NCBI GenBank assembly: GCA_002699185.1
Contig: PABG01000067.1
Coordinates: forward strand, 1 to 33,552
Length of the DNA: 33,552 nt
Source of the DNA: Gammaproteobacteria bacterium
Lineage (GTDB): Bacteria > Pseudomonadota > Gammaproteobacteria > Thiohalobacterales > Thiohalobacteraceae
Direction of reading: 5' to 3'
Each line of letters begins with the position of its first letter. Position 1 is the first letter of the stretch. The notes below the pieces were generated by a model. It had not been told where the DNA came from and ran no database searches. It was given only the letters and a program-made list of their open reading frames with translations. The position numbers and the translations under genes are program-made. Positions 28,982 through 31,122 of the stretch are shown one piece after another.

Positions 28982-29371
28982 TCACACGGCCTTGCGGCCG
29001 ATCAGTTCGATGGGGTAGCCGTCGGGGTCCTCGACGAAGGCGATGATGGTGGTGCCGGCGTTCATCGGGCCGGCCTCGCGCAGGATTTTGCCGCCGCGGT
29101 TGCGGATCCGCTCGGCGGCCTGGTAGACATCGTCCACCTCGATGGCGATGTGGCCGTAGCCGTCGCCGAGGTCATAGGACTCCGTGTCCCAGTTGTACGT
29201 CAGTTCCAGGACGGTGTTCTCCGACTCGTCGCCGTAGCCGACGAAGGCCAGGGTAAACCGGCCGTCCGGGTAATCCTTCTGGCGCAGCAACTGCATGCCC
29301 AGCACTTCGGTATAGAATCTGATCGAGCGGTCCAGGTCGCCGACCCGCAGCATGGTGTGCAATATCCGCAT
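28982..29371 (-). CDS. gloA: Lactoylglutathione lyase (glyoxalase I)
   Basis: [49 protein letters not shown]...[27 protein letters not shown]...[15 protein letters not shown]-like AGGAGA upstream of ATG 29371. Confidence 0.95.
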
Positions 29372-29397
29372 GGCTGTTCTCCTGAGAAGATCAAAAG

Positions 29398-29632
29398 AAA
29401 AGAGCGCCACGGAAAACACGGAAAGCACGGACATGTATTGCTATATGCCAAGGCGCTGCGCGCTTGGCAGTATCATGATAACCCAGATGACTCCGTCATG
29501 CCGGCGGAGGCCGGCAACCAGGCGCCTCATCCCCCTGGATTCCGGCCTACGCCGGAATGACGAAGAGGGAACCAATCGGGGGATGTATAATAGGTTCGTC
29601 CGTGCTTTCCGTGTTTTCCGTGGCGCTCTTTT
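29398..29632. repeat. Nested inverted-repeat element A between argG and gloA
   Basis: Perfect 35-bp inverted repeats AAAAGAGCGCCACGGAAAACACGGAAAGCACGGAC (29398-29432) and its reverse complement (29598-29632), enclosing a small hairpin (29446-29469) and a 69-bp imperfect palindrome (29494-29562). Confidence 0.9.
29494..29562. repeat. REP-like imperfect palindrome inside element A
   Basis: CGTCATGCCGGCGGAGGCCGGCAACCAGG ... CCTGGATTCCGGCCTACGCCGGAATGACG; 25 of 29 arm positions complementary. Confidence 0.85.
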
Positions 29633-29636
29633 ATAA

Positions 29637-30851
<1,215 letters not shown>

Positions 30852-30879: not shown

Positions 30880-31122
30880 AACGCAGAGGACGCAGAGGCG
30901 CTAAGGCGCAGAGATATTCAATATAAAGACCATTGTCATTGCGAGCGCAGCGAAGCAATCTCGGAATGCTGGCAATGCGGCTTGTGCGAAGAGATTGCTT
31001 CGCTGCGCCCATAGAAGCCCTTCGGGCTTCATTATGGGTACCCCACCCTGCGGATCTGGGCATCGCAATGACGTGAATATATTTGTACCTTTGCGCCTCC
31101 GCGCCTCTGCGTCCTCTGCGTT
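30880..31122. repeat. Nested inverted-repeat element B between the E2-E3 gene and argG
   Basis: Outer arms AACGCAGAGGACGCAGAGGCGCtaAGGCGCAgAG (30880-30913) and reverse complement of AACGCAGAGGACGCAGAGGCGCggAGGCGCAaAG (31089-31122): 31/34 identical, first 22 bp perfect; encloses further palindromes. Confidence 0.9.
30935..31072. repeat. Inner palindromic repeat inside element B
   Basis: GTCATTGCGA (30935-30944) / TCGCAATGAC (31063-31072) flanking an 18-bp perfect pair GCGCAGCGAAGCAATCTC (30945-30962) / GAGATTGCTTCGCTGCGC (30991-31008), plus hairpin GAAGCCC-TTC-GGGCTTC nested in CCCATA/TATGGG (31008-31038). Confidence 0.85.

Follow-up and report, generated by a model that had tools for sequence, protein, structure and literature searches.

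The gap between argG and gloA in the window (the 33,552-nt stretch of gammaproteobacterial DNA analysed here, contig PABG01000067.1) holds a small cassette, element A, of a kind whose positions are stable over the lifetime of the genus while its contents and arm flavour turn over. The interiors of these cassettes are exchanged and inverted at orthologous sites, and arms of the same class flank genes for the GxxExxY protein (PF13366/TIGR04256), a predicted nuclease, across bacteria. We propose, with somewhat more belief than doubt, that element A belongs to a GxxExxY element family, as a member that lacks the gene, and that the family's nuclease would work at the arms and promote cassette exchange and inversion.

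Element A had been described as an exact 35-nt inverted repeat that fills the argG–gloA gap and has tandem units in its arms, and this was borne out by the sequence: the arms are perfect reverse complements, far beyond what chance would produce, and are built from the tandem units CACGGAAAA/CACGGAAAG/CACGGAC (Table 1). The cassette starts 4 bp past the argG stop codon (29637–29639) and its other end lies 26 bp ahead of the gloA ATG (29371), as originally described. Two nested structures were likewise confirmed, namely a 7-bp hairpin and a CGTC-tagged palindrome, which measures 69 bp counting the outer C and G and 67 bp from GTCATG to AATGAC. As called mechanically, the gloA ORF runs on into the arm (window 29372–29434), and arm-derived peptides of this sort probably contaminate the N-termini of annotated proteins.

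A second arm pair, element B (30880–31122), is located beyond argG, upstream of the gene; it is of the CGC flavour and has a CGTC-type REP inside. At this site G001 has a minimal arm-loop-arm structure, and in G002 and G008 a GxxExxY gene lies immediately upstream of argG between doubled arms (AACCGCCAAGACGCC). The arms at the same site in G005 and G006 are of the CACGAAATCC type, and upstream of argG in G003 (locus L082) several degenerate elements, their arms of the CCACGAAGTCC/CCACTGAAACC kind, stand in tandem.

Table 1. Features of elements A and B and their neighbours (window coordinates)
Feature	Coordinates	Strand	Description
gloA (lactoylglutathione lyase), downstream neighbour	28982..29371	-	ORF; start codon 29371; name from the original prediction
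Left arm, element A	29398..29432	+	AAAAGAGCGC end and three tandem CACGGA units (CACGGAAAA CACGGAAAG CACGGAC); exact reverse complement of 29598-29632
Exchangeable interior, element A	29433..29597	.	Unrelated to the orthologous interior in two sister species
GC-rich hairpin TGCCAAGgcgctgcgcgCTTGGCA, element A	~29446..29469	.	Sequence; TGCCAAG...CTTGGCA
CGTC-tagged REP palindrome, element A	29494..29562	.	Sequence; CGTC class described in PMC3733652; further copies dispersed over the genus
Right arm, element A	29598..29632	-	Sequence
argG (argininosuccinate synthase), upstream neighbour	29637..30851	-	ORF; name from the original prediction
Left arm, element B	30880..30914	+	CGC flavour: AACGCAGAGGACGCAGAGGCGCTAAGGCGCAGAG
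Interior, element B	30934..31073	.	CGTC-type palindrome (GTCATTGCGAGCG...CGCAATGACG)
Right arm, element B	31089..31122	-	Sequence

The arms are dispersed through the genome to which the window belongs (G000; 2.9 Mb, 79% complete) and do not occur at argG–gloA alone; paired copies elsewhere were the check first suggested for a dispersed element. A DNA search of G000 gave 134 matches, arms near-identical to the left arm of element A occur at about 100 places, and the places examined contained at least 101 arms and at least 46 inward pairs of 100–524 bp. The core of the arms (CACGGAAAACACGGAAAGCACGGA) hardly varies, and their outer end reads ATAGC, ATGGC or AAGAGCGC. From pair to pair the arms are nearly identical and the interiors mutually unrelated, comprising GTAG REPs (GTAGGTCGGGTTAGC), CGTC REPs (GTCATTCCGGC, GTCATTGCGAG), GC-rich hairpins, a CCCTC/GGGAG triplex motif or a gene, which among the G000 arm pairs read was once GxxExxY. 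The intrastrand-triplex (TMECO/PIT-like) motif, CCTCTCCCCCTTGGGGGAGAGGG, was seen between arms at L040:3009–3194; triplex repeats (PMC4666352) were rejected as an explanation of the family, the motif being just one of its cargoes. Element A carries inward tandem CRCNRA(G/A) units at 8–10 bp spacing on both sides, as the family does. Its interior is a hairpin plus a REP with no GxxExxY gene, and it is therefore a gene-less derivative at most. No full copy of this interior, which might have served as donor, was found elsewhere in G000, G001 or G002; its relatives there are at the level of REPs, plus one hairpin-and-REP composite enclosed by arms of another flavour (G001, L240).

With its terminal inverted repeats, short non-coding interior and many copies, the element A family also resembles MITEs. 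Correia/NEMIS, Chunjie, Nezha and ERIC elements similarly are intergenic, multi-copy and non-coding, span 100–300 bp and end in terminal inverted repeats, and Correia elements also invert (PMC10969869). The arms could accordingly be the ends of an unrelated transposon of the DDE or RAYT type, with the elements (100–500 bp) as its MITEs and GxxExxY captured once, a reading that we regard as very improbable. Unlike in MITEs, the interiors are unrelated between copies, the arms consist of tandem units spaced 8–10 bp, and the partner gene encodes a predicted PD-(D/E)XK nuclease rather than a DDE transposase. No target-site duplication was seen among 45 elements in G000, where a boundary direct repeat of at least 5 occurred in 4% compared with 8% in shuffled flanks. 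Nor would a single capture suffice, since such arms enclose GxxExxY time and again, in many phyla; it is the only enzyme found between them in a non-exhaustive search for others.

REPs likewise do not account for the arms. GTAG and CGTC REPs are known classes, the latter without a dedicated transposase (PMC3733652), and such palindromes are among the interiors; the ends of the family elements, however, are CRCNRA units and not GTAG-tagged REPs, which sit inside. A RAYT transposase was rejected as driver of the system, as no Y1 (RAYT) transposase (PF01797) was found in the 79% complete G000. GTAG REPs are abundant in that genome all the same. Within 0.8 Mb of contig C1 of G002 (L169–L208), 35 of 164 REP clusters lay between arms, compared with about 1% or less of random positions, and 116 of the 164 were armless on both sides. 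As some 70% of REP clusters in this region lie outside arms, REPs are taken to be mobile on their own, being enriched between arms rather than confined there.

Turnover of the interiors was evident from orthologous sites. argG orthologues were present in 10 of 11 relatives searched, and an empty argG–gloA site, for which the original prediction had suggested looking, was sought in the genus and not found: in the sister species the arms are the same and enclose a different interior. At this site a GTAG-REP interior is common to G001 and G002; the window's interior is unrelated to it, within the same outer ends and flanks. All 26 comparable orthologous sites were occupied in every genome compared (G000, G001 and G002), with no empty site in the genus among them. 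When REP-masked interiors were compared pairwise (40 comparisons), 11 were the same, 8 inverted and 21 different, under a conservative threshold by which some 'different' pairs share more than REPs. The 8 inverted comparisons represent both orientations of an interior at one site, as in invertons, which also have inverted repeats; unlike in invertons, interiors are replaced wholesale as well.

This exchange bears on an RNA-level role, which we consider improbable, in which a transcribed stem-loop would stabilise, process (through RNase III) or attenuate the argG–gloA mRNA and the arms would be conserved for that purpose. The element is intergenic and past a stop codon, its RNA fold is very stable (z = −14, a trivial consequence of the arms), and RNase III processing of Correia-element stems has been reviewed (PMC10969869). 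Against this, the interior is not conserved at orthologous sites, and its wholesale exchange argues against a conserved RNA function of the interior. The same arms moreover enclose a protein-coding gene, and their sequence class is conserved between phyla, although a stem needs pairing only. An Rfam search of element A gave no credible match, the sole one being MIR1437 to the hairpin, far under the gathering score.

Outside the genus, junctions with and without an element were found in pairs. The radA–FAD junction of Bacteroides finegoldii reads TTCACCACAGAGG...GxxExxY...CCTCTGTGGTGAA and that of Parabacteroides distasonis is a 13-bp gap; at fabD–fabG, Sphingomonas parapaucimobilis has an element and S. 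paeninsulae a gap of about 30 bp. These pairs are of different species or genera and thus do not delimit the exact target. All empty sites came from other species or genera, with no truly recent insertion seen.

The gene that links the cassettes to a protein is present at two places in G000. At the first (C69:2129–2467), in the accB–accC gap, GxxExxY is enclosed by exact arms of the same flavour as those of element A (2052–2075 and 2493–2516); at the second, the flanking arms are of another flavour (CGCAGAGACGC...). Between G000 and G002, the flanks of the accB–accC site are 93–96% identical and the gene interior 68% only. The predominant arm type also differs, being AT-ended in G000 (57 compared with 42 GCGC-ended) and GCGC-ended in G002 (36 compared with 10 AT-ended). 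Judged from these sequences, the joint difference in accB–accC gene and genome-wide arm type amounts to a natural switch.

Conservation and structure modelling point to the likely activity of the protein. Across 76 GxxExxY sequences, G23, G25, E28, D67, E77 and N108 show no variation and K79 and Q91 almost none, a pattern that at the level of the alignment is that of a PD-(D/E)XK active site. The structure model had a pLDDT of 94.8, and the nearest solved folds by Foldseek, in matches that were weak (best E = 3e-3), were LHK-Exo, Cas4 SSO0001, AddAB, lambda exonuclease and MGME1; the homing endonuclease I-Bth0305I ranked lower. A profile search for solved sequence relatives found none. GxxExxY is thus predicted with high confidence to be a small PD-(D/E)XK nuclease, nearest to lambda exonuclease and Cas4. 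A search of an open-access library gave incidental mentions only of GxxExxY/PF13366/TIGR04256, with no functional study among them, and no mention of the arm sequences; a prior description elsewhere is possible.

The association of gene and arms extends across bacteria. Scanning GTDB species turned up 80 GxxExxY loci, which were placed in at least 17 phyla. Of 77 loci, 57 had a flanking inverted repeat with a score of 32 or higher, compared with 0.8% of 1703 control windows, and inward tandem CRCNRA(G/A) units stood on both sides of 55 of 76 genes, compared with 5 of 1250 controls and with 6 loci that had the units outward. The units at GxxExxY loci are spaced 8–10 bp and mostly number three per arm; about 28% of the surveyed genes had no recognisable arms on both sides. 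In an independent sample from the window's phylum, arms occurred at 13 of 26 loci and at 0 of 154 controls. A further gene-less inward pair was found within about 4 kb of 17 loci (22 pairs compared with 13 outward arrangements), a weak signal taken alone. Among 398 genomes of the phylum, the gene was present in 11 of the 15 that were arm-rich (at least 8 matches in excess of the reversed-pattern control, a cut-off chosen after seeing the table) and in 32 of the 383 others (Fisher p = 7e-9, odds ratio 30), leaving 4 arm-rich genomes without it; the co-occurrence was also seen inside one family (p = 0.008).

Arm type tracks the lineage of the nuclease. Left and right arms are closer within a locus (distance 0.62) than between loci (2.16), and arm distance correlates with protein distance (Mantel r = 0.25, reached by 0 of 2000 permutations). 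The CAC/CGC state of the arm changes 10 times on the protein tree compared with 16.5 times in shuffles (p = 0.002; p = 0.024 when shuffling within phylum), and the tree itself mixes phyla, with 39 changes where the minimum is 17.

These data weigh on the main rival of the nuclease model, in which the arms are ordinary long inverted repeats acted on by host homologous recombination or hairpin template switching, and GxxExxY, which might serve in defence or repair, is carried along as a passenger. Inverted repeats by themselves can flip loops, and interior inversion can arise passively from them, as reported for hairpin inversions in chloroplast spacers (PMC2903610). Most interiors here are palindromic and so likely recombinogenic, and the enzymatic role of GxxExxY is a prediction from its modelled fold. 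Inversion alone therefore fits passive recombination; the association in many phyla, the inward orientation and the covariation of arm type with the protein, even within phyla, do not, and neither does the keeping of one arm grammar (CRCNRAG at 8–10 bp) in unrelated hosts. The gene was absent from all 50,697 phage records searched and present in 8 of the 72,556 plasmid records, a distribution that appears unlike that of a typical mobile defence gene, and PADLOC gave weak matches, to Cas4 and nothing else, for one of the two G000 copies. Two of three examined plasmid records with the gene (L276 and L277) carry housekeeping genes (rplI and fabD; radA and thrA) and therefore look chromosomal. On balance we judge passive recombination unlikely.

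The simplest model for all the data remains a nuclease at the tandem units, with arm-mediated swap and flip. The family would consist of small cassettes bounded by inward arms of tandem CRCNRA(G/A) units at 8–10 bp spacing, and its full members would carry a single gene, for the minimal PD-(D/E)XK nuclease GxxExxY. The nuclease would recognise the tandem units and cut or resect at the arms. Another copy, engaged through its 25–35-nt arms by annealing or recombination, would then be used in repair, and one interior (REPs, hairpins or the nuclease gene) would take the place of another; an element whose own two arms recombine would be inverted. We infer that the protein binds and cuts the arms and thereby drives exchange. 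Lambda-Red-like annealing through arms of 25–35 nt is an analogy suggested by the fold: homing endonucleases and lambda-Red/Cas4-type nucleases share the small PD-(D/E)XK fold predicted here, and exchange via short homologous arms would work alike. Those systems differ in that the GxxExxY family has terminal inverted repeats and gene-less derivatives, a nuclease activity that is predicted, and a sequence profile that finds no solved homologue.

The interpretation first put forward for element A was therefore partly supported. Among the roles it offered, that of a non-autonomous mobile element survives, given that the element belongs to a dispersed family with paired arms and that arms of this class flank a predicted nuclease gene both in this genome and bacteria-wide. 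Dispersed cassettes with common ends that also flank GxxExxY point to an undescribed mobile-element family. More tentatively, GxxExxY nucleases might define a bacteria-wide class of mobile elements, an idea that we hold to be possible and somewhat short of probable, in which a solo Cas4/lambda-exonuclease-like enzyme with tandem arms would work by break-and-anneal exchange and would give rise to swappable and invertible non-autonomous cassettes, REPs included, in housekeeping operons.

GxxExxY is widespread and uncharacterised, and linking it to DNA sites whose grammar can be read provides a testable substrate at once. If the proposal is true, the set of enzymes by which small elements spread would gain a PD-(D/E)XK nuclease. 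CGTC REPs, which have no known transposase, would then have a route between loci, and a class of bacterial intergenic repeats would be accounted for.
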